DNA of 44,671 nt, taken from the IMG/VR virus record IMGVR_UViG_3300017613_001403, positions 1-44,671 of that record. The stretch is one strand, 5' to 3'. A program made the position numbers and the translations under genes. Origin of the DNA: a virus. Position 1 is the stretch's first letter. Every line of letters starts with the position of its first letter. Below, in pieces: positions 6,391 through 41,602 of this stretch. The notes under the pieces are model-generated. The model was given only the letters and a program-made list of their open reading frames with translations, was not told where the DNA came from and made no database searches.

Positions 6391-6716
6391 GGCTTTTCTC
6401 CCTCGGCCCTGATTCTCCACGTGTGGCCACCATAACCGGAGAAGGTTATCCAACCGTCTTTATTATTAGGATCTCCACTTATGCCGCCAACCTTAACGTC
6501 AAACCCACACCCCCAACCATCAGAACTAACCTCAAAATATGCAGAGTCTTTTCCATTCGGACGCAGGACAATATCTGTGATAATTCCACGAGCACCCTTG
6601 AAACCCATTGCCCTATCCATTCCATCTCCAAAGTCTTCAAGTGTGCCGCCAAGCCACTCTTCCTTACGCTCAACAAATTGACCCCATAGCGGGTAGTGTT
6701 TTCCGTTTACTTTCAT
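6387..6716 (-). CDS. Hypothetical protein, 109 aa
   Basis: Starts at ATG 6716 after TAGGAG. It begins MKVNGKHYPLWGQFVERK and has beta-type repeats of G/D/W (SSDGWGCGFDVKVGG, DGWITFSGYGGHTWR). It resembles small beta-barrel-like proteins of phage early regions. An upstream in-frame extension to 6785 lacks a site. Function unknown. Confidence 0.7.
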   Translation of the reverse strand: MKVNGKHYPLWGQFVERKEEWLGGTLEDFGDGMDRAMGFKGARGIITDIVLRPNGKDSAYFEVSSDGWGCGFDVKVGGISGDPNNKDGWITFSGYGGHTWRIRAEGEKP

Positions 6717-6760
6717 GGCGTTTCTCCTAATTTGGTTGAGGGCCGGGCAATCCGATGATT

Positions 6761-6847
6761 TTAAGCGGGTGGGCCTACCACCCATTGTTTTTTTGGTTCA
6801 TTGCCCAGCCCCACATTGATGGGATAGCACCCTTCCACTTTCACCAT
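6761..6847 (-). CDS. Doubtful 28-aa peptide
   Basis: Frame beginning MVKVEGCYPINVGLGNE. The nearest ribosome-like GAGG is 13 bases before the start, so support is weak. It is reported only because the 6717-7027 interval otherwise lacks a gene. Its last codons overlap the hairpin at 6767-6783. Confidence 0.2.
   Translation of the reverse strand: MVKVEGCYPINVGLGNEPKKQWVVGPPA
6767..6794 (+). terminator. Rho-independent terminator, plus strand
   Basis: GGGTGG, loop GCCTA, CCACCC, then ATTG and seven T. It points against the leftward genes, so it would stop antisense readthrough into the early unit rather than end a known gene. Confidence 0.6.
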
Positions 6848-6912
6848 TGCTGGCTTACTGACCTCACCCTTTCGGTGTTCCACCACCGCCCGTCAGACTA
6901 TCCCAAACTGTC

Positions 6913-6997
6913 GCCCCCGCACCGGAATCGAACCGGTCTGTACTTTCCCTATGAAAGCATCCATGGACGGATATACAGGTCACCAGAATCAGGAGGG
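6913..6997 (-). tRNA. tRNA-like element, probably degenerate
   Basis: On the minus strand a perfect T arm is present: stem ACCGG/CCGGT around the loop TTCGATT, followed by GCGGGGG. A possible 5' acceptor strand CCCTCCT pairs with that G tract except for one mismatch and two wobbles, giving an 85-base molecule. A stem CTTTC/GAAAG would fit a long variable arm. No anticodon loop with U33 can be drawn convincingly, so no amino acid is assigned. It could be a decayed tRNA, a tRNA mimic, or a copy of a host tRNA 3' end. Confidence 0.3.
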
Positions 6998-7027
6998 CAT
7001 GTAAAAGAACTTGCTGCTATGCCGCCT

Positions 7028-7228
7028 TTAGATGTTTTCGTTTAGCTTGTGATCTCCGCACCAGTCAGATTCAAAAACTACTGGGTAGCCGTTCATTGTG
7101 GGGGCATGCCTTCGACATCGCCCAATGTGGCCAACATCTGAGCTTGCCGGTTGTGTGGTATCCTTTATTGTAAACCACATGCATGTCTTACACCTCATTC
7201 CCTCGCTTCGATGCTTCCAGTTGTCCAT
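7028..7228 (-). CDS. Cys-rich zinc-finger-like protein, 66 aa
   Basis: ATG 7228 has AAGGAG upstream. It has CKTC, then GRCRRHAP and SDWCGDHK, forming a CxxC...C...C pattern common in small phage early proteins of unknown role (MRCKTCMWF ... TMNGYPVVFESDWCGDH). A long untranslated stretch (7229-7386) carrying a pseudoknot-like structure lies upstream. Confidence 0.75.
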   Translation of the reverse strand: MDNWKHRSEGMRCKTCMWFTIKDTTQPASSDVGHIGRCRRHAPTMNGYPVVFESDWCGDHKLNENI

Positions 7229-7325
7229 AATTTCTCCTTTTTGAGATTTATGCTTTTGCCGCCGTGTCCATCTCGGGCGCTTCTTTCTGTGAGTGTGGAA
7301 GCCGTAAATGAACGTGGCGGCTATT

Positions 7326-7379
7326 TGACCCTGCCCCCTTCTGGTACTCAGCAGCTATGGCCTTTCGGGTCAGGGGGCA
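7326..7379 (-). ncRNA. Pseudoknot-like structured segment
   Basis: Two complementary pairs are interleaved: TGACCC (7326-7331) with GGGTCA (7367-7372), and TGCCCCC (7332-7338) with GGGGGCA (7373-7379). The order A-B-A'-B' defines an H-type pseudoknot with 6- and 7-bp stems and a 28-base inner loop. It lies in a 158-base gap between two leftward genes, so on the transcribed strand it is a 5' leader for the Cys-rich gene ending at 7028. Role inferred only. Confidence 0.4.
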
Positions 7380-7386
7380 TTGGACT

Positions 7387-7926
7387 TTAACCTTTTATTT
7401 CTGCAATTTCTTCCTTATACTCATCCCACATGGACAGAGTTTTTTCGGCCCAAGTTAAAACCCTCATTTTTCTGGCCAATTTATAAAAATCTTTCCAGCA
7501 TAAATTTGTCTCCATTCTGATTCGTGCTGAAAAGTTTTTTTGACTTTTCGTATTGGATTTGCGCCAGAGTATTTCTGATGCGAATTGATGGGAATTGATA
7601 GGTGGGGTTTCAACTCCGACAAGATACGCTCCGGCAAGATTCGCTCGGGCAAGATCCGCTCCGGCAAGATCCGCTCCGGCAAGATTCGCTCCGGCAAGAT
7701 TCGCTCGGGCAAGATCCGCTCGGGCAAGATTCGCCTCGACAAGATTCGCTCGGGCAAGATTCGCCTCGACAAGATACGCTCCGGCAAGATTCGCTCCGAC
7801 AAGATCCGCTCGGGCAAGATCCGCTCCGGACCTAACTGCGATCTCAACCGCTACTTTCAAAGATTCCGCTTTAGTTGAAAAAATAACCTTGCCATCATAT
7901 CGTGACTTTATCTCTATGGTTTTCAT
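7387..7926 (-). CDS. Pentapeptide-repeat protein
   Basis: 179 residues from ATG 7926, with AAAGGAG upstream; it is the first gene of the leftward unit. The N-terminus ([18 protein letters not shown]) has a short beta region. Residues about 33-102 are 14 consecutive pentapeptides of A(D/N/Y)L type ([15 protein letters not shown]), predicting a right-handed quadrilateral beta-helix. The C-terminal 75 residues are charged and helical. Such helices mimic DNA in Qnr/MfpA proteins; a gyrase- or defence-directed role is only a possibility. Confidence 0.9.
7620..7829. repeat. 14 tandem 15-bp units encoding the pentapeptides
   Basis: Units of CAAGATNCGCTCSGG on the plus strand, all 15 bp and in phase with the pentapeptide codons of the minus strand. 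Because 15 is a multiple of three, all frames stay open here and several false plus-strand frames arise. Confidence 0.95.
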
Positions 7927-7963
7927 GGCACTCCTTTGGATGGGTTTTTGTGCTTTTAAAAAC

Positions 7964-7993
7964 ATTAAAACACACATTGATATATTATGTCAA
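7964..7993 (-). promoter_or_regulatory. Leftward early promoter with operator-like palindrome
   Basis: On the minus strand TTGACA (7993-7988) and TTTAAT (7969-7964) are separated by 18 bases, a near-consensus sigma70 promoter 38 bases before the pentapeptide-repeat gene. A 17-bp imperfect palindrome TTGATATATTATGTCAA (7977-7993) overlaps the -35 element; the HTH protein at 8103 is the obvious candidate to bind it. Confidence 0.7.
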
Positions 7994-8623: not shown

Positions 8624-9989
8624 GGATTTTCTTGAATCAAAAATAGTTCAGCATGGTTCGTATGGGTTTGAAATGTCGATATCGAGTCTAAATCCGATGC
8701 TTTTTGAATGGCAAAAAGTGTTGATAAGGTGGGCATTGTTTAAGGGCCGGGCTGCTATTTTCGCAGATTGTGGTCTTGGCAAAACTCCAATGCAACTTGA
8801 ATGGGCTAATCAAATCTATATTAAAACAGGAAAGAATATTATTATATTTGCTCCATTGGCAGTATCGCTTCAAACAAAGCACGAGGGTGAGAAATTTGGA
8901 ATTTCTGTTAATGTGTGCAAATCACAAAAAGATGTCAAATCTGGAATTAATATTACGAATTACGAACGGATAGAAAAATTTAATCCCGATGAATTCGGAG
9001 GTGTTGTTCTTGATGAATCAAGTATTTTAAAAAACTTTGCAGGAAAAATAAGAAACTATATAATAGACGCTTTTTTATATATTCCATATAAACTTTGTTG
9101 CACGGCAACACCAGCCCCAAATGATTATATGGAGCTTGGTAATACCTCTGAATTTTTAGGAGTTATGACAAGAGCTGAGATGCTTTCTATGTATTTTATT
9201 AATGATGCATCTCATACCGGGACCTGGAGATTAAAGGGGTATGTTAAAGATAATAAGTTTTGGGAGTGGGTGGCAACATGGGCTGTAATTATGCAAAAAC
9301 CACAGGATATAGGATTTGCAAATAACGGTTTTAATTTGCCGCCACTGAATATAAAAGAGCACCTTTTACCATATCATGGCAAGAAATACTCATTGTTTGT
9401 AGAGGAAGCCACAACACTATCAGAAAGGCGTTTTGCAAGAAAGGAATCTATGCCACAAAGGCTTGATAAGACTTTACAACTAGTACAAAATAATCCAGAT
9501 GACATATGGCTTGTTTGGTGTAATCTTAATATTGAAGGCGAGCTACTTAAAAAACATCTCGTTAATGCCGTTGAAATAAAAGGATCGGATTCAATAGAAC
9601 ATAAAGAAAATACTGTCTTAGAGTTCTCAAAAGGAAATATAAAGCGACTTATAACTAAAAGCAAGATAAATGGTTTCGGTGTTAATTGGCAGGCGTGCCA
9701 CAACATCATTTTCTTTGGTTTGTCAGATTCATACGAGCAATTTTATCAGGCTACAAGAAGATGTTGGCGGTTTGGTCAAAAAAATCCGGTCAATTTGCAT
9801 ATTGTTATTGGGGAACGAGAAAGGCCAGTGCTTGAAAATGTTAAACGTAAAGAAGAAGATGCCCAAAAAATGTTTCACGAAATGGTATCATATGTAAAAA
9901 CAAATACAATAAAACAACTAAATAGATACGATATCAAAACAGAACCATATAATCCTAAAATTAAAATGGAGATCCCAAAATGGTTATGA
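8607..9989 (+). CDS. SNF2-like superfamily 2 helicase
   Basis: 460 residues from GTG 8607, chosen because AAGGTGG ends six bases upstream; a longer in-frame start inside the previous gene is unlikely. Motifs: Walker A ADCGLGKT (53-60), Walker B-like LDESS (135-139), TATPAPND (166-173) and motif VI QATRRCWRFGQ (381-391). It is a compact SNF2 engine without visible extra domains. It probably translocates on double-stranded DNA. The methyltransferase gene starts within its last codons, so the two are likely co-produced. Confidence 0.92.
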   Translation: MNQKYEDFLESKIVQHGSYGFEMSISSLNPMLFEWQKVLIRWALFKGRAAIFADCGLGKTPMQLEWANQIYIKTGKNIIIFAPLAVSLQTKHEGEKFGISVNVCKSQKDVKSGINITNYERIEKFNPDEFGGVVLDESSILKNFAGKIRNYIIDAFLYIPYKLCCTATPAPNDYMELGNTSEFLGVMTRAEMLSMYFINDASHTGTWRLKGYVKDNKFWEWVATWAVIMQKPQDIGFANNGFNLPPLNIKEHLLPYHGKKYSLFVEEATTLSERRFARKESMPQRLDKTLQLVQNNPDDIWLVWCNLNIEGELLKKHLVNAVEIKGSDSIEHKENTVLEFSKGNIKRLITKSKINGFGVNWQACHNIIFFGLSDSYEQFYQATRRCWRFGQKNPVNLHIVIGERERPVLENVKRKEEDAQKMFHEMVSYVKTNTIKQLNRYDIKTEPYNPKIKMEIPKWL

Positions 9990-21900: not shown

Positions 21901-22211
21901 AAAGTTGCAGAACCAAGGAAATGACCGCATCGGGGCAGGCATACACAGGGGAATGTTTGTTGTGTGGAGTTCTCATAGGTACAGACGGCGCAAATGATCC
22001 AACCGTAGCAGTGTTTGACGGTACAAGTACATCGGGGATAGAGGTTCTACCCACAAACACTTATGATGCGTCTGTAAAACGTCCATTTAGATATGATTTT
22101 GCAACCCCTATTAAGTGTGACACTGGCATATACGTTAGTATTTCGTTAGGCGCCGGGGCTTGCGAGGTTACAATTTTATATCGAGAAAGGGAAAACTGGG
22201 GAAGTGGTTAA
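21897..22211 (+). CDS. Module B2: paralog of B1
   Basis: 104 residues from ATG 21897. Same framework as B1: TASGQAYTGECLL, IGTDGANDPTVAVFDG, NTYDASV, TGIYVSI, RENWGSG. Divergence is greatest in the middle loop. Probably a structural ornament gene copied with A2. Confidence 0.75.
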   Translation: MKSCRTKEMTASGQAYTGECLLCGVLIGTDGANDPTVAVFDGTSTSGIEVLPTNTYDASVKRPFRYDFATPIKCDTGIYVSISLGAGACEVTILYRERENWGSG

Positions 22212-22651
22212 TGTCCACCATAATTTCACATAAGCACAAGTTTATATTCTGCCATGTTCCAAGGACGGGGGGTACGTCATTCACCGAGGCCGTAAAGCCG
22301 TTTCTTGGGCCTGATGATGAGCTTGACACATGGCCGAAGCACACGCCTTTATCTAATATGAGTAACCCTAATTGCAGAACAGGCAAGGTGTTTAAGGACT
22401 ACACGAAGGTTTCAATTTTTAGATACGATGAGGATAGACTTGAAAGCCTAAAGAGACTTAAACCACCTGAAGGGGTAAAGCCTAATGATGATTTTTGGTG
22501 GGAAAATGTAAAATGGTTGTATGACAAAAACGGTGATTTGCTGGCAGATATATTGATTAGCTTCTACAGCTTGCCTGATTCAGCGATTGAGTTTTTGCAG
22601 AAATACGGCATTGAGGTTGAAGATTATCCACATTTGAACAGGGGGAGGTAA
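22211..22651 (+). CDS. Sulfotransferase-like protein
   Basis: 146 residues from ATG 22211 (overlapping the B2 stop in TAATG). KFIFCHVPRTGGTSF (10-24) is the 5'-phosphosulfate loop of PAPS-dependent sulfotransferases; KVSIFRYDEDRLESL resembles the 3'-phosphate motif that usually reads R-NP-DR. The protein is shorter than typical enzymes (200+ residues), so it may be a minimal or decayed form. If active it would transfer sulfate to a sugar or protein. Its presence in the late operon is unusual. Confidence 0.7.
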   Translation: MSTIISHKHKFIFCHVPRTGGTSFTEAVKPFLGPDDELDTWPKHTPLSNMSNPNCRTGKVFKDYTKVSIFRYDEDRLESLKRLKPPEGVKPNDDFWWENVKWLYDKNGDLLADILISFYSLPDSAIEFLQKYGIEVEDYPHLNRGR

Positions 22652-24245: not shown

Positions 24246-25238
24246 ATGACAGACTGGGGATTTGCAACCGGAAATGCCTTGACAAGAAAAGCGTGGGCAA
24301 AACGCTTCTGGGTTGAGGCTAAAACGGAGTCATATTTTTATGGCAACGGTCTGGTAGGCAGGGACGAAAATCAAGCAATAATTGTCGAACTGCCGGACCT
24401 TGAGAAAGAGCAGGGCGATGTCATTAACTACGGTCAGATTCGAGAACTTTCAGGTGACGGCGTTGAGGCCGACAACACTATGGAAGGAAACGAGGAAGAT
24501 GTAACGACCTATGACGATGACGTTACTCTAAACCAAAAACGAAATGCCATCAGAACCGAAGGTAAACTTTCTGGCCAGCGTCCGAGTGACAAACGGCTCA
24601 GAATGTGGGCGAGCGAGCTTTTAAAGCGATGGATGGCAAAAACTTTAGACGAAGACCTTTTTGAAGCTTTGGGTGAGGACTTGACAAAAGCGGTCTATGG
24701 CGGTGATGCAACCGCTACGTCAGGCATAGAGGCCGGGGATTATTTTACGCTGGCTTTAATTGCCAAGTTTGTAGCTTACGCTAGAAAGGCCACCCCGAAG
24801 ATTATTGGCCCGTCATTTAAGGGTAAAAAGACAAACGGGATTGTAGTTATTTCTCCTGATCAGTCTTACGACCTCACCGAAAGGGATGCGGCTTACAGTC
24901 AGAGCAGGATGGAAGCGGCCTTGAGGGGTTATTCAAACCCGATCTTCACCGGCGCATTAGGTATGCACAAATCAGTGCCTATCCATGAACATTCAAGGGT
25001 AGCGGTAAACACTACATGGGGAGGTAGCACAAACCTCAATGGTGCAACCGCACTGTTTATGGGCGTAGGTTCCGGTGTGATTGCATACGCCATGAAGAAG
25101 ATTTGGAATGAAAAGACGTTTGATTATGGAAACAAAGTAGGTTTTTGCATCGGCAAGATTTACGGTACGTCAAAGAGTGTTTTTAACTCTGCTGACAATG
25201 CTGTTGTCGGGGGAAGAACTTACCGATCTAATAATTAA
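24246..25238 (+). CDS. Major capsid protein (N4-gp56/DUF4043-like)
   Basis: 330 residues from ATG 24246, with GGAGG upstream. Start MTDWGFATGNALTRKAWAKR and the following AKTESYFYGNGLVG, DVINYGQIRELSGDG, MEGNEED match the N4-gp56-type capsid family; the second half has KTNGIVVISPDQSYDL and ALGMHKSVPIHEHSRV, typical HK97-fold A-domain strands. It builds the icosahedral head. A terminator follows it directly, which allows strong expression of this gene. Confidence 0.9.
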   Translation: MTDWGFATGNALTRKAWAKRFWVEAKTESYFYGNGLVGRDENQAIIVELPDLEKEQGDVINYGQIRELSGDGVEADNTMEGNEEDVTTYDDDVTLNQKRNAIRTEGKLSGQRPSDKRLRMWASELLKRWMAKTLDEDLFEALGEDLTKAVYGGDATATSGIEAGDYFTLALIAKFVAYARKATPKIIGPSFKGKKTNGIVVISPDQSYDLTERDAAYSQSRMEAALRGYSNPIFTGALGMHKSVPIHEHSRVAVNTTWGGSTNLNGATALFMGVGSGVIAYAMKKIWNEKTFDYGNKVGFCIGKIYGTSKSVFNSADNAVVGGRTYRSNN

Positions 25239-26748: not shown

Positions 26749-27609
26749 ATGAGAAAATTTTTTAAGATGATTGCAACCGCAATGCTGGTTTTTGCGTTGA
26801 TTGTACCGGTTGCAAATGCCGAACTTCAGGACATGAAAGCTACGGTTTACAGCTGGGACGGCAAAATCAGCACTGACGGCAAACCTGTTCTAACCAAGCT
26901 GACTTCAGGCGTAAGGTTCTGGGTGTGTGCGATTAATACGTCCACACTGGAAACGCTGTATGAACACACGGACTTGGACGGGCAGGCCATGACATCCTTA
27001 ACAAACCCGATTACTTCCACTAATTTTGCAAGTGATACGGTTTGCGGGGATAAAATTAGGTTTAAGGTAGATCCGACAGACTCAGCGGATGACAGATATG
27101 TCGATCTTTATGTCGTTGATACCAACGGCGGATATTTCGCATTTGTTGAGAACTTCGACAAATACCATCACACCGTTGTTATCGATGAGCGTCCCGGCGT
27201 TGTGCATCACGGGGTATATCGCTCGGCTGTAATTACCAGCACCACTGAGGTTGATACCGAAATTGACTTTGATTATGACACCTTTATTCACAATGTTTTT
27301 GTCGAGATTGTCACGGTAGAAACCGCACAAAGTGGCGGCGTGGGGGTAGGTGTGGATGTCGGGCTTGATACGTCTTCATCTGGCGATGTTAACGGTTTTG
27401 TTGACGGATCGGATTTGACATCATCAGGGTACCCGACCCAGAGCGCAACCGTAAAGGGTGCTTTGATTGACGATGGCACAAGCGACAGCCTTGCATATGC
27501 GATTGACGGCACGGACGAAGTTGAATTGTGCTATGCCGGTGACAGTACCGGAAACGCATTAGGGGTTGTTAATATTCATTATATGTTCAGCGTAATACCG
27601 AAACATTAA
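26749..27609 (+). CDS. Secreted beta-rich protein, 286 aa
   Basis: MRKFFKMIATAMLVFALIVP then VANA gives a Sec type I signal peptide (cleavage after residue 25). The mature part is beta-rich with repeated short Asp/Gly strands (VRFWVCAINTSTLE, VEIVTVETAQSGGVGVGVDV, GDVNGFVDGSD). GGAGG precedes the start. Virion proteins seldom carry cleavable signals, so either the host exports it or it is a virion protein tolerating one. The end touches the O-antigen-ligase-like gene (27609). Confidence 0.7.
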   Translation: MRKFFKMIATAMLVFALIVPVANAELQDMKATVYSWDGKISTDGKPVLTKLTSGVRFWVCAINTSTLETLYEHTDLDGQAMTSLTNPITSTNFASDTVCGDKIRFKVDPTDSADDRYVDLYVVDTNGGYFAFVENFDKYHHTVVIDERPGVVHHGVYRSAVITSTTEVDTEIDFDYDTFIHNVFVEIVTVETAQSGGVGVGVDVGLDTSSSGDVNGFVDGSDLTSSGYPTQSATVKGALIDDGTSDSLAYAIDGTDEVELCYAGDSTGNALGVVNIHYMFSVIPKH

Positions 27610-28706
27610 TGAGGTATGTACTTCCGATAATTTATATAATGCTGCCCTTTGCGTTTTTGTCTAAAGGGCTTATCCACATCGGGCAGCATTACGCTTTTTA
27701 CATAGCATCGGGGGTACTGTTCGGAACCATGCTTTACGGTGGTTTTCCAGAGATCAAGAACAAGTATATAGGCGTATTTTTTATATATCTTTCTATACTT
27801 GTTTTGGCAATGTGCGCTTTAAACATGCTCGGATTTGCCAGAGTTATTCATGTAAAGTCAAGCATAGTGACCCTGTTTTACTTTACATCGGCAGTTGTTG
27901 TTTACATAGCAGTAACCGGAAGTAAGTTGAAATCCGAAACCTTCTATAACGCTATCTGTATATCGGCATTAATTCAGGTTGTGATAGTGGTTTTTCAATA
28001 TTTTAGGATATATCCGGTTGTTTATTTAATTTCCAAAATAGTTAGAGTTGAACACTTTAAAGACTTCGGGGGGATCGTATCAGGCACGCTTGGAAACGTG
28101 AATTTTGTAATGGCATATATAGTTATGTCAACACCGTTCTTTTTCCGAAAAAGATGGGTTTATTGCCTGGGGCTGATTGTTCCGATTGTCGTTTTATCAA
28201 AGGTGAGTTTTGCGTTTATGTCTTTAGCCGTAGGCATAGCGGTATTTTATAACAAAGGCGCAAAATGGATTATAACGGGTTGTGTTATTGGTTTGCTCTA
28301 TGCGCTTTGGTCAGACCTGGAAAAAATCATCAATGGCGAAAGGGTGATAATGTGGCAGAAATGTATAAAAGAATTTACTTGCTGGCCTAATGTTCTATTC
28401 GGGTTCGGCCCGTTCAGCGAATGGAAGGGCAGAGTGCCTTTGCACAACGAATATCTTGCGTCAATACATAGATTCGGGATTGTAGGGCTTGCCGTTATAA
28501 TTGGGTTTATCAATGATAAAATCAAGCATTTCAATTTCTTTGGAATTATAACCGGGAACAAGATTTTATATTCTGCAATGGCCATAACACTGACCAACAG
28601 TATCGGAAATCCTACGCTTCATTTTGCGCCTACGCTCGTTTTAATTATTTTCATATTCGGACTTATCGAAAGGGAGCAATATGGCAGATTACCTAACCTT
28701 TCTTAA
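27609..28706 (+). CDS. O-antigen ligase/polymerase-like membrane protein
   Basis: 365 residues with about ten hydrophobic helices. The conserved Wzy_C/WaaL layout is visible: R245 in GERVIMWQKC, GFGPFSEW (265-272), then the periplasmic PLHNEYL with His279 and Asn280, and a Gly-rich helix. These enzymes join or polymerise undecaprenyl-linked glycans at the inner membrane. In host genomes they sit in glycan loci; here the gene lies between a secreted protein and an adaptor-like virion gene, overlapping both, so it is expressed with them. A surface-conversion role is inferred. Confidence 0.75.
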   Translation: MRYVLPIIYIMLPFAFLSKGLIHIGQHYAFYIASGVLFGTMLYGGFPEIKNKYIGVFFIYLSILVLAMCALNMLGFARVIHVKSSIVTLFYFTSAVVVYIAVTGSKLKSETFYNAICISALIQVVIVVFQYFRIYPVVYLISKIVRVEHFKDFGGIVSGTLGNVNFVMAYIVMSTPFFFRKRWVYCLGLIVPIVVLSKVSFAFMSLAVGIAVFYNKGAKWIITGCVIGLLYALWSDLEKIINGERVIMWQKCIKEFTCWPNVLFGFGPFSEWKGRVPLHNEYLASIHRFGIVGLAVIIGFINDKIKHFNFFGIITGNKILYSAMAITLTNSIGNPTLHFAPTLVLIIFIFGLIEREQYGRLPNLS

Positions 28707-29598
28707 TATAATCAACGAGGTTCAGAGGGGCTTAAAGCTCAAGGCAACCGCAAAACTCGACCTTATCAAGATGATAATAAACATGGTGTATCTTGACGAG
28801 GTTATGGCTTGTGACAGCCTGTACCCGTTTTTCTGGCTCAGAAAGATGGACGATTCTCTAGCATCTAAAGCACCCACGACAATAACCGCTATAAATCAAA
28901 GCTCTCCTGGTGATGTTGCAACGGCTCATTCGTTTGTAACGGATGACATTGTTTCTCTTTATAATGTCGGTGGAATGACCGAGATTAACAATCGTCTATT
29001 TAGAGCTGTTAGGACAGATGGGAGTGCATTGACCCTAAAAGACCTTGAGGGCAATGCAATTGATACGACAGGTTACACAGCTTACACAAGCGGGGGAACG
29101 GTTCACCACAGGGGTTTAACCCTTGCAACAACGAGTATTGATGTTCAGAAAATCCTACATGCCAAATGGCACGATAAGGGAGAAATGACATCAATTACCT
29201 CGGAAGAAACTGAAGAAAAAAACAGCTATTTGAGCGACAGCACATCAAGGCCGAAAAGATATTTGCACAAAAAATCTTTTACCGCAGCAGGAGCAGAAAC
29301 AAATCAACTTATTTGGTTTCCGGCTTCTGATGATGCCTATGATTTAAGATATTGGGCTGAAATAAGAGTCGCCAAAATGGCAAATGATACCGATGTTCCG
29401 TTACTACCTCCACAGTTTCATCATGCGATTGTGGCAGGGGCATTGGTAAGGCTCGCAGAAAGCGAAGTTCAGGTGGAGAATCAAGTGGTATGGCCTGGTG
29501 TCTATGCTGCCCAGTTAAAAGCTCTCAAGTCGTTTAACCGTGAGTTTTACGAACAGTCACAGACAGACCTTTCAACTGCAAAACCGTATCTATTATGA
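28681..29598 (+). CDS. Head-tail adaptor/connector-like protein
   Basis: 305 residues. Begins MADYLTFLNIINEVQRGLKL with helical N-terminus (DLIKMIINMVYLDEVM), a beta middle, and the late PPQFHHAIVAGALVRLAESE helix, an arrangement common to phage adaptor proteins that plug the portal. Overlaps the O-antigen-ligase-like gene by 26 bases and the tail gene by 4. Moderately sure. Confidence 0.7.
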   Translation: MADYLTFLNIINEVQRGLKLKATAKLDLIKMIINMVYLDEVMACDSLYPFFWLRKMDDSLASKAPTTITAINQSSPGDVATAHSFVTDDIVSLYNVGGMTEINNRLFRAVRTDGSALTLKDLEGNAIDTTGYTAYTSGGTVHHRGLTLATTSIDVQKILHAKWHDKGEMTSITSEETEEKNSYLSDSTSRPKRYLHKKSFTAAGAETNQLIWFPASDDAYDLRYWAEIRVAKMANDTDVPLLPPQFHHAIVAGALVRLAESEVQVENQVVWPGVYAAQLKALKSFNREFYEQSQTDLSTAKPYLL

Positions 29599-32500
29599 TT
29601 AAAAGACTCTCTATAATATTTTTAGCGTTGTTATTGATTGTTGGTGTTGCGATAGGTGGCCAGTTAAAACCATTTCCGTTTGCGTTTTTCGGAAAGTGGC
29701 AGCCCTCGGAAGATCCCTTGCTAATTGATGACAACGGGTTTCAGGACATTCAGAATCTACGCAAGGATGGTAAAAGACTAAAGGGTGTTTCCGGTCATTC
29801 TAAAATAAACACGACCTCCATTGATAACGGCGGGGATATCTACATATATCCAAAGAACGGATATCACTTCTCGAAAGATCAACCATCCGAAAGCCATGTA
29901 ATTATATATGCGACCAGAAGTGACGGGACACTCCCAAGGCTTTACCAAAACACCACGGCTATTCCATCGGCCGGTAATTTCTCGACTACCATACTTCATA
30001 CGGACGCAACAGGTGCGGGTATAGGTAGGTTCTCAAAAGCCCCCCAGGGAAACATGATCTATACGAACGGCCTTGAATCTATGATCTGGGGTGGGGATGA
30101 GTTTCTACCTGTTTCTTTTATCACATCAACAGCAGCGATTTCAAGCACAGCCACAAATCCGCATGATTACAGTGAGGCTATAAACAATTCTCTGACTACA
30201 GGCTCAAACATCGCTATTATCGGCGGGGGAAATGATGACCATTCCGTACTTTTGATGCACTTTGACGGTGCTGACGAAGCGATTGTCATGCCTGATTCGT
30301 CACTGGGCGGGGCTCATGGTAATGCCACCATAGTCAACGATGCCCAATACGACACGGCTCAAACCAAGTTCGGTACAAGCTCAATTTTATTCGCCGGTTC
30401 AAGCGATGCCATAACTTTTGCTGATAGCGGCGACTGGACACTCGGAACCGTTGATTTCACGATAGAGGCATGGGTTAGATTCGCCACGGTAGCAGACGGC
30501 ACATATCAGACAATCGCCACACAGCATGTAGATGATGACAATGAATGGGTTGTATATTGGTATAGAAGCGGGGCCACAAAAAAGCTCGTATTTTACTATC
30601 AGACCGGCGGCGGGGCTGTTGAGATCGACATGTCGGTTGACTGGGATCCGTCTGCGGACACATGGTATCATGTTGCGCTTATTCGTGGATGGGGCGGAGT
30701 AGCCGGACGGTGTGCATTTACGGTTGACGGTACGCTTCAGGGTAGCTATGCGGCTCATGCCGATGATATGGCGAATTTTGCAGACAGCCTTTCCATAGGC
30801 GTGAGATACAGCACAGCCATAGGAGATAAATATTTTAACGGCTGGATGGACGAACTAAGAATAGACAAAGCCCTTGCTGCATGGACATCCAACTTCACGC
30901 CGCCCACAAGGGCGTATAATTCGTCCGGTAAAACATGGCTTGTGGGATCATACAGGCCGCTTCAGGGAGTTAAATATTACGTTCAGGACGCTAACGGCGA
31001 AGCATCCACCATGACCGTCAAAGAATGGCAGGGAGCTACATGGGAAACCCTGACGGTTACGGACAACACCGACACCGGAGCATCTTTAGCTACTACCGGG
31101 ACGGTTACATGGACGAAAACCGGACTCGCCAAGGTTAAATATATAGAAGGTCTTTCTCTCTATTGGTATCAGTTTTCAATCGATGCCGGAAACGCATCTA
31201 TATACAGATGCACAGCAGACGCACCTTTTGGAGATATAAGAAACATATGGGACGGTTCGGTGGTGGTGGTAGCGTCCTTTAAAAAATGGAACGATTCCAC
31301 TTTTATCGACTACACGGACTATGTCAACACCGATGTTGTGACCGATGTTGCAGACATAGACACGCTGGACACCACTCAATACCTACTTTTAGGATTTACC
31401 GAGCCACAGCAGGGCTTTAATATATTTTTCGTACCCGGTGAAACAAACGCCATCGCCACGGTTATGTCGGCGTATTACTGGGATGGTGCTGCATGGGTAG
31501 CGGTAGCTGGACTGACTGACGGTACGGATGTTTCGGGTACGAGTCTTTATAAATCAGGCACTATTTCATTTCAGCCGGTAGCGACAGGAAACGAATTTCC
31601 AAAAGCCATTAGTGACGAAATACCTCTATATTATTACAAGCTCCAATTTACCGTACAGTTAGGTGCAAGTGTCGATATTTACTATGTGACCGGCATACCA
31701 AACCCGGAACCTGTAGGAAAATATAAGTTCTCCGCATTTTTCCAGAACCGATCATTTTTATTCAATGAGAACAACGGGCGTAAAAACAAGTGTATTTATT
31801 CGACATATAACGCACCGGACATATGGAATGGTGACGATTCAGGAACCCTGTACTTCGGAGATGACACAGCACTTACGGCGGCGGCGGTAATCTACAACGT
31901 ATTTCAAACCACCGGATATGAACAGCTTTTAGTTACCAAAGCGAATGAGACTTACAGGGTTGTTGGGGATGGTCCTGATAATTGGATTACAACCAAGATG
32001 TCCGGTAATGTCGGGTGTGTTGCTCCACTCTCGATGGTGGTAGCCGAGGTTGCGGATATATCACAGGACACAAAAAGGCACGTTGCGATATGGCAGACGA
32101 GCAACGGCGTTTTTATGTGTGACGGTTCCGCTATAATTCCGATCAGTCAAGACATTGCTAATTATTGGGATGCCAACAGTTCGGATTATATCCCGGCAAG
32201 TAGACAGGACGATTCGGTGGGATGGTATGACCCCGATTTACAGTCTTATAAACTTCTTGTCTCATCCGGCTCGGGTCAAGCCACTCACAATGTCGAGTTG
32301 GAATACTCGCTTAAATATCAGGAATGGACAAAAATATACAGGGAAAACGGAAGTGGAGCAAACCCGCTTCAGGCAGGGTTTCAGGTCAGGGACACTACCG
32401 GAAACACATATTCATACGGTGCGACAAACGAGGGTACAATTTATTATACGGAAAACTCTCTGACATGGGCAGGAACGGACATAGCTCAATATGTATGGAC

Positions 32501-32846
32501 AAAAGACCTAATGCTTGATGACCAAATTCCGTTAATGAAAGACACAGTAATTGATTATTTCAGATTGTTATTAGAGAAGAAAACAAACACATCGGGTGAG
32601 GATATATCGGTTGAACATTATTGCGACAGGACAATCACAACCGATGGCACAGACTATCAGGACGTACCTGCAGACATAGATCCCGATTCAAGCACCATAG
32701 CTACAGAGGACACGAATTTAGGGCCGTGTCTTATACATAGCTTTAAACTATCGGCTGATGTTAATTCTATGGTTGATGGAATGGAATTGATGGGTATGGG
32801 GCTTTATTATGACACACAGGACGATATAAGCGGTGTGAACGATTAA
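29595..32846 (+). CDS. Tail nozzle-like protein with LamG domain and signal peptide
   Basis: 1083 residues. Begins MIKRLSIIFLALLLIVGVAI with GGQ, a Sec-type signal or anchor, unlike classic tail genes. The N-terminal mature part (NGFQDIQNLRKDGKRLKGVSG) resembles gp10/tail-tubular-B proteins. Residues about 217-435 form a LamG/concanavalin-like lectin domain (FTIEAWVRF, DTWYHVALIRG, GWMDELRIDKALAAW). Further beta-sandwich and propeller-like segments follow. Probably a large tail protein with inserted glycan-binding domain, exposed on the virion. Confidence 0.75.
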   Translation: MIKRLSIIFLALLLIVGVAIGGQLKPFPFAFFGKWQPSEDPLLIDDNGFQDIQNLRKDGKRLKGVSGHSKINTTSIDNGGDIYIYPKNGYHFSKDQPSESHVIIYATRSDGTLPRLYQNTTAIPSAGNFSTTILHTDATGAGIGRFSKAPQGNMIYTNGLESMIWGGDEFLPVSFITSTAAISSTATNPHDYSEAINNSLTTGSNIAIIGGGNDDHSVLLMHFDGADEAIVMPDSSLGGAHGNATIVNDAQYDTAQTKFGTSSILFAGSSDAITFADSGDWTLGTVDFTIEAWVRFATVADGTYQTIATQHVDDDNEWVVYWYRSGATKKLVFYYQTGGGAVEIDMSVDWDPSADTWYHVALIRGWGGVAGRCAFTVDGTLQGSYAAHADDMANFADSLSIGVRYSTAIGDKYFNGWMDELRIDKALAAWTSNFTPPTRAYNSSGKTWLVGSYRPLQGVKYYVQDANGEASTMTVKEWQGATWETLTVTDNTDTGASLATTGTVTWTKTGLAKVKYIEGLSLYWYQFSIDAGNASIYRCTADAPFGDIRNIWDGSVVVVASFKKWNDSTFIDYTDYVNTDVVTDVADIDTLDTTQYLLLGFTEPQQGFNIFFVPGETNAIATVMSAYYWDGAAWVAVAGLTDGTDVSGTSLYKSGTISFQPVATGNEFPKAISDEIPLYYYKLQFTVQLGASVDIYYVTGIPNPEPVGKYKFSAFFQNRSFLFNENNGRKNKCIYSTYNAPDIWNGDDSGTLYFGDDTALTAAAVIYNVFQTTGYEQLLVTKANETYRVVGDGPDNWITTKMSGNVGCVAPLSMVVAEVADISQDTKRHVAIWQTSNGVFMCDGSAIIPISQDIANYWDANSSDYIPASRQDDSVGWYDPDLQSYKLLVSSGSGQATHNVELEYSLKYQEWTKIYRENGSGANPLQAGFQVRDTTGNTYSYGATNEGTIYYTENSLTWAGTDIAQYVWTKDLMLDDQIPLMKDTVIDYFRLLLEKKTNTSGEDISVEHYCDRTITTDGTDYQDVPADIDPDSSTIATEDTNLGPCLIHSFKLSADVNSMVDGMELMGMGLYYDTQDDISGVND

Positions 32847-37679: not shown

Positions 37680-38030
37680 ATGAAAACACTAATAAGAATC
37701 CTGTTAATCACGTTTCTTTTAATTGGATCGGCACACGCATTTGAAGCCTCTATAAGCAGTGGGGAAAAAACCGCAGATGCCCAGATTGTAACCGGAAACG
37801 GGGCCTTATCTGCCTTTGAGGTTATCACTGATGGAACAAATGATGCCAAGATAATTATATACGACAACACGGCAGCATCAGGAAAAGTCTTGGCTGAAAT
37901 GACGGTAAACGGTGGCGCTCATTTTGGTGGCCGTGAGCCTAAGTTCCCACCTGAATTTTATAATGGGATATACGTTGATGTTTCCGGTACAGGTGCATCA
38001 TACATTATCGAAACGCTACAGAGGAACTAA
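37680..38030 (+). CDS. Secreted module B3 (paralog of B1 and B2)
   Basis: 116 residues. MKTLIRILLITFLLIGSAHA is a signal peptide (cleavage after AHA). The mature part matches B1/B2: TDGTNDAKIIIYDNTAASG, FYNGIYVDVSGTGASYIIE. AAGGGGT precedes the start. So the same fold appears with a signal peptide here and without one at 21283 and 21897. Confidence 0.75.
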   Translation: MKTLIRILLITFLLIGSAHAFEASISSGEKTADAQIVTGNGALSAFEVITDGTNDAKIIIYDNTAASGKVLAEMTVNGGAHFGGREPKFPPEFYNGIYVDVSGTGASYIIETLQRN

Positions 38031-38031
38031 A

Positions 38032-39096
38032 ATGAAAAAGCAGGTCATTATATTTTTCACGTTATTACTTTCTATTGTTTGCCTTGGTTTTTATAGCGGT
38101 GCTGATCTTTATACCGATGACATAAATACCCCTGCCAAACTCGAAAGCGTAGCCAACCTTGGAGCATATGCGAGTGACATATTAGCAGCGACATCCGAAG
38201 CCAATTTTAAAAGCATTACGAACCTTGAAGCTGGTACTGACTTTTATTCTGTCGCTGCGGCAGATGCGGCATTTGAAGTACAACTAGTCAACGAGGCTGG
38301 ACTCTATGCTGTTTTATCAGATGTTAGTAATTTTACCCAACCAGGAACAAACGAAACCATCACAGGTTATTGGACACATCTTATTTTCAGGGGAACACTC
38401 GCAGCCGGAGCGTTAGGTTCTATTGCAAACGGTGATATTTTCTGGACCGACCCCGATAATTACGACCCTGCTTCAACGAGTGGTTCCGGCGAGGGTGATG
38501 ATTACTTAGCTCTTAAAACAGATTCAGGATATTCTGCACTTCTTAAAAAGGATGGCACTTGGTTACATGGGCCTTTCCAGCTACCATATTCTGATTCCGG
38601 GGATGCAACTCTAACCGAAGGCTATATCCAACAGAAATCGGATGAAGACGGGATAGTTTACGCCTTTGCCAGTGATGGAGAAATACCCGGCGAGGTTTTT
38701 CAGTCTCTTATACAGCACGTTTCAATGGCGTTTGATCCTACTGGAGCATACGACCAAGAAAGCACTTATCGTTCATTACCCCTATTTTATGTTGGAGATG
38801 ACTTTCCTCATGGTATCACGATTACTGAATGGAAAGCATTTTACGTCAAGGGCGATCCAACTACCGAGCTTGATGCTGATATAATTTGCGACACTACACC
38901 GGATTTCAACACGGGGGCAGGGGCAACCGTTATGGATGCGATCAACACCACAAACGGAACCTCAACTGCAGATGCGGGTTTTGATTCTGGTTCTTGCGCT
39001 AATGGGAGTTACGTTTATATTCACTTTGGGGCTGATCCGGTAGATGACAATGTGCTGGTAGCATTTGACCTTTGGTTCTACGCAGAGGAAGACTAA
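38032..39096 (+). CDS. Secreted protein, 354 aa, tail-fibre-like
   Basis: Starts ATG 38032 (GAGG upstream). MKKQVIIFFTLLLSIVCLGF is a signal peptide or anchor. Then short repeats as in fibre proteins (TPAKLESVANLGAYASDIL, FKSITNLEAGTDFYSV), and a C-terminal sandwich (YGS... HFGADPVDDNVLVAFDLWF). Resembles trimeric fibre proteins except for the signal peptide. It ends two bases before the next gene. Confidence 0.7.
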   Translation: MKKQVIIFFTLLLSIVCLGFYSGADLYTDDINTPAKLESVANLGAYASDILAATSEANFKSITNLEAGTDFYSVAAADAAFEVQLVNEAGLYAVLSDVSNFTQPGTNETITGYWTHLIFRGTLAAGALGSIANGDIFWTDPDNYDPASTSGSGEGDDYLALKTDSGYSALLKKDGTWLHGPFQLPYSDSGDATLTEGYIQQKSDEDGIVYAFASDGEIPGEVFQSLIQHVSMAFDPTGAYDQESTYRSLPLFYVGDDFPHGITITEWKAFYVKGDPTTELDADIICDTTPDFNTGAGATVMDAINTTNGTSTADAGFDSGSCANGSYVYIHFGADPVDDNVLVAFDLWFYAEED

Positions 39097-39097
39097 T

Positions 39098-39634
39098 ATG
39101 AAAAAATGGCTTGTCTTAATTTTGTGCTTAGTCGCTTTCCCTGTTTATGCAGGGCAGTTGCGGGTGTTGAGTCCTTTTATATCTTCTGGCGGAGTTACTT
39201 GTACCGATACCGCTGTTCAATGTGATACAGATGCACATGGATACAACATTGGCTTAACCTTCAATCAGTTAATAAAAGCCCAGGGCGCTGAAATTACAAT
39301 CTGTCAAGTCGATGTCTGGATGAACGAGGATGGAACCGCCGGGGATGCTCATGTTGAGATTTGGAACACTGATACTAATGTGCAATATGGAGACGATTCA
39401 GACTCACAAACCATAGATGCCGGATCAGCCACAGAATATAATTTTACATGGTCTGGAACAAAACCCGTAGTCCCAAATGCCGATTTTAGACTGTATGTCA
39501 TAGAGGAAGACGGAAACCTTGAAGTAAGGGACTCACAGAATGTTAATTGTTATGAGGATACCAATTACGATGCCTGGAATGTTGGTGCTGACGTTGGAAC
39601 TGATCTTAAATTTAACATTCACACGGATCAATAA
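39098..39634 (+). CDS. Secreted beta-sandwich protein, 178 aa
   Basis: MKKWLVLILCLVAFPVYAGQ gives a clear signal peptide (cleavage after YAG or YA). The mature protein has TCTDTAVQCDTDAHGYNIGL, then ITICQVDVWMNEDG, HVEIWNTDTN, and RLYVIEEDGNLE: a beta-sandwich with four cysteines, possibly disulfide-bonded, consistent with export to an oxidising compartment. The next gene starts right after the stop. Confidence 0.7.
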   Translation: MKKWLVLILCLVAFPVYAGQLRVLSPFISSGGVTCTDTAVQCDTDAHGYNIGLTFNQLIKAQGAEITICQVDVWMNEDGTAGDAHVEIWNTDTNVQYGDDSDSQTIDAGSATEYNFTWSGTKPVVPNADFRLYVIEEDGNLEVRDSQNVNCYEDTNYDAWNVGADVGTDLKFNIHTDQ

Positions 39635-41602
39635 ATGAAAAAACTGTTTTTTACAACTCTTATATTTTTCCTTCTTTGCCTTTCTGTAAACGCAACAGAT
39701 TATCACGCTGACCAAGACGGCGGGGCTGCCAATCTTGCGGCTTGTTCCGGTGCTGATCCTGGCAACGGTAGTCGTTGTGACACCGAGGATGTTGAGGATA
39801 TCACAGCAGGGAATACGGTCTATTGGTATGACGATGGAGGAGTAATCACCGGACAGATAAACGTGAGTCAAAATGGCTCAAGTGGAAACGTCATTACTCA
39901 TGTTAAGGCCGTAGGTGAAACTCCTGTTTTTACACGCTCTGGGAGTGCATCATTTGATATTAACGACAAGGAGTATATCAAGCTCGATGGATTGACATTT
40001 ACAGGTGGGTCGGGTCGACAAGTGTATGCTTATAACGGCTCACACTATCTCGAAATAGATGACTGTACTTTCTCCGGTATTTCCAGCTATTCATCACTTG
40101 ATATCAGAGATAGTAATTATCCACATGTGCATGACAATACTTTTGGGGCAGGGCCAGCGGCAAGCGAAGAAGCGGACGAAACAGACGATATCCATTGTAT
40201 TGACGTTGATTATGGTCGTTTCATAAGCAACAGTTTTTCTGTCGGCAACGGCCACATGATGATATGGTTGTCTGACTGCGATTATAATGTGATTAGAAGT
40301 AACGATTTTGAAACTACCACAGCGACAAACGGCAACGAATATGGGACTGCGGACAGTTTTATAAATCTATCAAAATGCGAATATAACTTGGTAGAATTAA
40401 ACACAATGAACTGCCAAACGACCCCTGATGCCGATAATTGGACGTATGGAGTTTATATATCTGGATCAAGTTCGTTTAATATCACCCGAAAAAATACAGT
40501 CAACACATCTCTTGGCCCCGCATTTAATGTTTGGAACTCGACTGGAACCTCACAATATAATCAAACATACAACAATACTGCGTATGATTCTAATCCCAAT
40601 CCTATCAGTGGTGAGCAATGGGGTTGCATCGTATTGAGTAAAACTGATAGCGGTCTGGAAAACAATAGATTTTTAAATAATATCTGCTCTGAAAGTGGTG
40701 AGTTTGGAGTTGCAAAACAAAGCAATGCCGCTGGTGAAGACACCAATTATTTTTCCACCAATATATTCTACAATATAGATGTTGAAGATGTCTATTATGA
40801 AGGTACTCCGGCGATAACAATAACAGCCGCCGAAGATACTTACGGTTCGGAGTTTGAGGATGGAACGCATCTAACCGGCGATCCAAAATTTACAACCCCT
40901 GGAAGTGATTTCACCCTTCAAAGCAATTCCCCTGCCATCGATGCTGGTGCTTGGCTCACTACTATTAATCAAGCGAGTGGTTCAGCACAAACGATAACAT
41001 TGGATGACTACCCATATATGTTCTATGACGGTTTTGGAATATCAGGAGAAACAGGCGACACTATCAAAACCGAGAACGGTCAAACAGGTGTGATCCAATC
41101 TATTAACTACGGAGCTAAAACGATTACGCTCACATCAGCAATTCAGATTGTGGACAATGAGGGAATCGGCCTTGATTACTCAGGCATTAAGTCCGATATT
41201 GGAGCAGAAGAATACTCGTCACCTTCCCCCGGTGTTGGAATAGAAGATCCCACCCCTGCAAACGGAGTGACAGGACAAGGTTTAGCTGTCGATCCATCGT
41301 GGACAAACGGTGCTGGTGTTACCGACACAGACATATATGCCGACAAAGTGGACTGCTCAACCGAGGTCGATAATGACGGTGTGGCTGAAACGACATACGA
41401 CCTGACGACCACACATGACGAAACCTGGTACTGGAAAGTGGTGGTAAATCCTGACGATGAGAATTTAACTTTCCCCCCTACCGGTTGCTATTCATTTACA
41501 ACAATAACAACCCCATCGGTCTTGGGTGGGGCTGTCTATGATTCAAATGCAGGGGCAGGGGCGTATAGCTCGGGTGGCGCCACATGGGGCTATCTGCCAT
41601 AG
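39635..41602 (+). CDS. Secreted beta-helix protein, tailspike- or lyase-like
   Basis: 655 residues. MKKLFFTTLIFFLLCLSVNA is a signal peptide. Residues about 70-350 are a right-handed parallel beta-helix with N-rich turns (YIKLDGLTFTGGSG, YNVIRSNDFETT, YNLVELNTMNC, NTAYDSN), as in polysaccharide lyases and tailspikes. SPAIDAGAWLT and DIGAEEY near residues 430-520 are typical ends of such helices. A FN3-like domain (TPANGVTGQGLAVDPSW) closes it. Probably binds or cleaves surface glycan. Confidence 0.75.
   Translation: MKKLFFTTLIFFLLCLSVNATDYHADQDGGAANLAACSGADPGNGSRCDTEDVEDITAGNTVYWYDDGGVITGQINVSQNGSSGNVITHVKAVGETPVFTRSGSASFDINDKEYIKLDGLTFTGGSGRQVYAYNGSHYLEIDDCTFSGISSYSSLDIRDSNYPHVHDNTFGAGPAASEEADETDDIHCIDVDYGRFISNSFSVGNGHMMIWLSDCDYNVIRSNDFETTTATNGNEYGTADSFINLSKCEYNLVELNTMNCQTTPDADNWTYGVYISGSSSFNITRKNTVNTSLGPAFNVWNSTGTSQYNQTYNNTAYDSNPNPISGEQWGCIVLSKTDSGLENNRFLNNICSESGEFGVAKQSNAAGEDTNYFSTNIFYNIDVEDVYYEGTPAITITAAEDTYGSEFEDGTHLTGDPKFTTPGSDFTLQSNSPAIDAGAWLTTINQASGSAQTITLDDYPYMFYDGFGISGETGDTIKTENGQTGVIQSINYGAKTITLTSAIQIVDNEGIGLDYSGIKSDIGAEEYSSPSPGVGIEDPTPANGVTGQGLAVDPSWTNGAGVTDTDIYADKVDCSTEVDNDGVAETTYDLTTTHDETWYWKVVVNPDDENLTFPPTGCYSFTTITTPSVLGGAVYDSNAGAGAYSSGGATWGYLP

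Follow-up and report, generated by a model that had tools for sequence, protein, structure and literature searches.

What does a gene for a membrane enzyme of glycan transfer do within the capsid operon of a virus, and on what does its product act? The question is raised by the window, that is, the whole stretch of DNA analysed here (IMG/VR virus record IMGVR_UViG_3300017613_001403; 44,671 bases), in which a preliminary description had proposed an O-antigen-ligase-like enzyme lying between virion genes. The ORF (27609–28706, plus strand; 365 aa) is found at exactly the coordinates claimed for it, and the motifs named, R245, GFGPFSEW (residues 265–272) and PLHNEYL (residues 277–283), are all present; the reported gene overlaps are likewise correct (1 base with the upstream gene, TAATG; 26 bases with the downstream gene). 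The downstream gene (28681–29598, plus strand) encodes a homologue of the SU10-type adaptor protein (PF24175, 27.2 bits against a cut-off of 27), and about 2.4 kb upstream the operon also holds the gene for the major capsid protein (24246–25238, plus strand; PF13252, E 3.3e-30; phrog_334, E 3.5e-53). The label of virion gene is established for these two only, the immediate upstream gene being of no known family; the late-gene position is supported. Judged by its sequence, the ORF is a real gene and not a chance reading frame, since relatives in the same slot align over their full length (28–29% identity, E ~1e-30) and R245, G265, G267, H279, and N280 are conserved.

The window enzyme can be placed in the Wzy_C/WaaL superfamily on three lines of evidence. 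As the sole query it matched nothing in Pfam, PHROGs, or NCBIfam, and a PDB sequence search gave no relevant match. The PF04932 (Wzy_C) model, run against the whole record, found a single place, inside the enzyme ORF (E 5e-4; 14.9 bits against a cut-off of 31.7; profile positions 13–149 of 149), and three full-length relatives exceed this cut-off (L013, 36.6 bits; L028, 36.7 bits; L020, 36.5 bits). The HMM comparison suggested in the preliminary description thus gave a near full-length match and three passing relatives, with the window protein itself sub-threshold. An AlphaFold2 model built from alignment A6 (11 enzyme sequences) has a mean pLDDT of 68 and a pTM of 0.72, with pLDDT <50 in the catalytic loop (residues 264–289); a single-sequence model was dropped (pLDDT 41.5). 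In a Foldseek search of the PDB with the A6-based model, the top match is the WaaL O-antigen ligase (7tpg_B; E 3.4e-3; prob 1.00; TM 0.52/0.48) and the second-best has E 1.0 and prob 0.06, WaaL 7tpg being the sole credible PDB fold match of this predicted structure; a search of BFVD with the model turned up nothing credible among viral structure predictions. The proposed enzyme class is supported by the profile match, by the relatives that exceed the cut-off, and by the fold search, and the Wzy_C/WaaL fold implies lipid-linked glycan transfer as the class of activity. In the tree, the window's own enzyme subclade is firm (7 rows; support 100/99); a single phage clade set against bacterial Wzy_C proteins (support 33/13) was too weak for use.

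Residue conservation was read from an alignment of 20 proteins (15 phage members and five bacterial Wzy_C proteins), and through alignment with the bacterial proteins R245 and H279 of the enzyme are equated with R288 and H338 of Escherichia coli WaaL. These, and the corresponding R298 and H349 of N. meningitidis PglL, are residues reported to matter for function (PMC3643930). R245 (codon 28341–28343, plus strand) is present in 15/15 phage members and in all five bacterial proteins; G265 and G267 of GFGPFSEW (28401–28424, plus strand) are nearly invariant; H279-N280 of PLHNEYL (28437–28457, plus strand) is kept in 14/15 phage members, the sole one without the His-Asn motif being L076. The phage relatives stand at ~20–33% identity, and retention of R245 and H279-N280 in 14/15 members at such distances argues for selection for catalysis. 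At the position equivalent to R215 of E. coli WaaL, the third residue of functional importance there, no conserved Arg was found in the family (K, R, Q or other), the alignment being uncertain at that place. The divergent transferase relative of L076 (gene 6431–7525, minus strand), encoded close to an exported protein, retains the loop Arg and has lost His-Asn. Ten helices had been counted in the enzyme, which is too low: the alignment-based model predicts ~12 membrane helices. Under an arrangement with both termini inside, the Lys + Arg density is 0.20 in the inner loops and 0.13 in the outer loops, and R245 and H279 would share one long outside loop.

Relatives were recovered by several routes. 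Single-protein scans of viral and genome contigs with the enzyme yielded none, and tblastn of every member tried against 50,697 phage records was likewise negative. On contig L004, whose capsid protein is 64% identical to that of the window, the same slot holds a 350-aa protein 29% identical to the enzyme over its full length (E 2e-30). Scans with an enzyme profile added L010/L011, L013, L014, L019, and L020; enzyme-bearing L021, L026, L027, L028, and L039 came from a scan with the upstream protein. The A6 profile, run on 46 genomes (class of the Syntrophorhabdus MAG holding L020) and on 395 from its phylum, gave five new phage-type loci (L067; L068; L074, L075, and L076, all three from one genome) and two further matches without nearby phage genes (G128; G348, in a glycan gene cluster). 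L067 and L068 are probably prophages, since their lambda/HK97-like modules sit within long contigs (115 and 146 kb); the capsid, partner, enzyme, and adaptor genes of L074 and L075 match those of the window in kind and in order. Hosts of L020, L067, L068, and L074–L076 belong to the phylum of Syntrophorhabdus (Thermodesulfobacteriota of NCBI = Desulfobacterota). The conservation in phages that had been put forward as a check is therefore seen in metagenomic viruses and in Desulfobacterota phage and prophage contigs, and not in the 50,697 phage records. Across several phage types the genes of the relatives lie in late structural modules; the enzyme is carried by several unrelated phages of sediment-type bacteria.

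The enzyme gene is immediately preceded by a gene (26749–27609, plus strand) for a protein of 286 aa of no known family, here called the partner, with an N-terminal Sec-type signal peptide (~residues 1–24; signal peptides were assigned with a simple rule and not with SignalP); its only PDB sequence match is weak, to an entry named 'Structural protein' (E 0.13). A link of the enzyme with secreted proteins had been claimed, and it returns as a recurrent upstream neighbour: by the rule, an exported protein is encoded directly upstream of the enzyme on 10/10 contigs (window, L004, L010, L013, L019, L020, L026, L027, L028, and L039), and, judged by eye, in L014 and L021 too. In L010, L013, L014, L019, and L020, which were found with the enzyme sequence alone, the pairing was not selected for. 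Of the five new phage loci, which served as a test on fresh data, four have an exported-protein gene immediately before the enzyme gene; in L076 it is one gene removed. The partners form five sequence-unrelated families (window type; L013 and L019; L014 and L020; L067 and L068; L076). With a rough base rate of exported proteins of ~0.08–0.17 per contig, the joint chance of an exported upstream neighbour in five lineages is roughly 3e-5, or ~2e-4 when L013 and L019, whose partners are homologous, count as one, for a hypothesis that was framed after the first cases had been seen.

Further exported proteins were noted. In L020, a second signal-peptide protein gene (7119–7601) lies directly downstream, so that exported proteins are encoded on either side of the transferase. 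Sec-type signal peptides are also present on virion-like proteins of the window (29595–32846; 37680–38030; 37912–39096; 39065–39634; 39635–41602), among them a large tail-type protein and one resembling a beta-helix spike; of the homologues of the tail-type protein, those in L004, L026, and L030 bear a signal peptide and those in L005, L010, and L075 lack it.

The partner is not bound to the enzyme. The window-type partner was found on 19 contigs; in L030 its gene is followed at once by the adaptor gene, in L031–L036 lysozyme and other genes occupy the slot behind it, and in L024 the slot holds a radical-SAM/B12-binding-type gene (8954–9697). The enzyme profile gave no match elsewhere on the L030–L036 and L024 contigs, which may be fragments; the partner is without an enzyme in L030–L036 and probably so in L024. 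The partner must then be able to work in the absence of the enzyme, and the position behind its gene is an accessory slot. A comparison of partners with and without an enzyme showed no glycosylation tag and no difference in C-terminus or Ser/Thr content. That the partner occurs alone weighs more than anything else against a strict pairing of enzyme and acceptor, though not fatally, given the parallel of the pilins, which occur both with and without an O-oligosaccharyltransferase (O-OTase) of their own.

Other glycan-related genes had been invoked as signs of a glycan system. A sulfotransferase in the window is present as a similarity only over its first part: the short ORF (22160–22651; 148–163 aa) has an N-terminal match, below the Pfam cut-off, to Sulfotransfer_2 and to a phage galactose-3-O-sulfotransferase family, and is probably a fragment or minimal form. 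The label 'lectin-like', given to the secreted proteins, found no match in its support. The virus of L010 (69 kb; contig L011 is 99.99% identical) is richer in such genes: its portal and scaffold genes are separated by ~14 kb of genes for glycan biosynthesis (L050, 7914–17204; L010, 472–3321), namely GT2, PIG-L, ATP-grasp, GT4, epimerase, Bac_transf, E1 dehydrogenase, DegT aminotransferase, FkbM methyltransferase, and hexapeptide transferase; a Sulfotransfer_3 protein is encoded farther along. Its initiating sugar transferase (Bac_transf) was rejected as proof of a complete pathway and not counted as functional, because the N-terminal part is missing. These genes support a glycan role in the L010 virus and are only suggestive for the window. 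Elsewhere in the window, 7387–7977 (minus strand) encodes a pentapeptide-repeat-like protein with many near-identical repeats, and overlapping frames are open there on both strands.

We tentatively favour a reading in which a lipid-linked glycan is transferred late in infection and the exported partner, in preference to a host surface glycan, is the likeliest acceptor. The enzyme would be a phage-borne inner-membrane glycan transferase with its catalytic loop (R245, H279) facing the periplasm, made late from the capsid-adaptor operon alongside the Sec-exported partner encoded just upstream; it would take glycan from an undecaprenyl-pyrophosphate carrier of the host and transfer it in the periplasm onto the partner, in an O-oligosaccharyltransferase-like act. 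Here we infer the topology, the donor, the late timing of expression, and most of all the acceptor. The partner is preferred as acceptor because substrate-linked O-OTases adjoin their acceptors and because a late position ill suits lysogenic conversion; against it stand the partner family without enzyme, the lack of a tag, the missing PglL_A and Wzy_C_2 domains, L076 without the His motif, the rule-based calling of signal peptides, and the sub-threshold Wzy_C score of the window protein. An extension, in which some outer virion proteins are exported, the partner is glycosylated in the periplasm, and the glycoproteins join capsids when the inner membrane opens at lysis, is unlikely; its examples in the window are the signal peptides of the partner, the tail protein, and the beta-helix spike-like protein.

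Next in probability, and a serious contender, is an enzyme that remodels the surface glycan of the host late in infection, acting as an additional or modified ligase or polymerase of O-antigen, capsule, or some other surface polymer, the exported neighbour being an independent envelope or virion protein; progeny would so escape trapping on debris, or the dying cell would be spared re-infection. The shared WaaL superfamily and fold, the known surface-altering phage Wzy enzymes (Wzy-beta, PMC4815439; wzy1Ph and wzy2Ph, PMC13228068), the filling of the accessory slot by other genes in relatives, and the glycan-gene island of the L010 virus all speak for it, but it leaves unexplained an exported upstream protein drawn from five unrelated families in several phage lineages. 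In the form of classical lysogenic conversion it is further opposed by the location of the enzyme gene within a late structural operon, which would presumably be silent in the lysogen.

Two other explanations are given less weight, the first of them being unlikely. A weak or inactive relative might bind lipid-linked glycan or the WaaL/Wzy of the host and so block glycan assembly, which would suit both the unconserved R215 equivalent and the loss of the His motif in L076; the catalytic residues kept in 14/15 members, however, point to an enzyme selected for activity. That the motifs arose by chance in a multi-helix membrane protein of another kind (holin-like, transporter, or receptor) is highly improbable: the empty database searches with the window sequence alone, the moderate confidence of the model, and the poorly modelled catalytic loop would agree with it, but the three lines of evidence for Wzy_C/WaaL all contradict it, and it is near refuted.

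If the partner is the acceptor, this would be, to our knowledge, the first phage-encoded protein O-oligosaccharyltransferase system; if the reading of export and glycosylation is true, virions would wear host sugar chains. The known role of phage Wzy enzymes is in lysogenic conversion; a WaaL-fold transferase found in late morphogenesis operons across several phage lineages, paired with exported proteins from unrelated families, points to glycan chemistry in making or releasing virions; the data suggest that phages use host sugar chains while building new particles. The enzyme-partner gene pairs are compact (<2 kb) and directly testable in E. coli. Among the papers searched, nothing was found on phage-encoded oligosaccharyltransferases or on exported virion proteins.

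Among known systems, fold and chemistry are already familiar, and what is new is the late head module, the spread over several phage lineages, and the exported partner. The enzyme resembles the WaaL O-antigen ligase (PF04932; PDB 7tpg) in its fold and in the Arg and His of the periplasmic loop; it differs in that its gene lies in a phage late operon and not in an LPS locus, its R215 equivalent is not conserved, the window sequence falls below the family cut-off, and the acceptor is putative. With TfpO/PilO, TfpM, PglS, and PglL it shares the Wzy_C superfamily and a gene position immediately after an exported-protein gene (PMC3643930, PMC12645811): 21/31 pglL genes adjoin pilin genes (PMC3643930), and the substrates of TfpO, TfpM, and PglS are often encoded near their enzyme (PMC12645811). 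The PglL class is marked by PglL_A and Wzy_C_2 domains beside Wzy_C (PMC12645811, PMC3643930), and membership was rejected, neither domain being among the families matched by 11 members. The adjacent acceptor ends in Ser for TfpO and in Ser/Thr for TfpM (PMC12645811), and membership there was rejected as well, the phage partners ending in H, R, Q, N, Y, K or P and never in Ser/Thr; they are not pilins, and they are also found without an enzyme. Closest in being phage-borne membrane enzymes that act on lipid-linked glycans are Wzy-beta (Pseudomonas aeruginosa O16; PMC4815439) and wzy1Ph and wzy2Ph (Acinetobacter baumannii prophages; PMC13228068), which alter the surface of the lysogen, whereas the window gene sits in a head-adaptor module with an exported partner.
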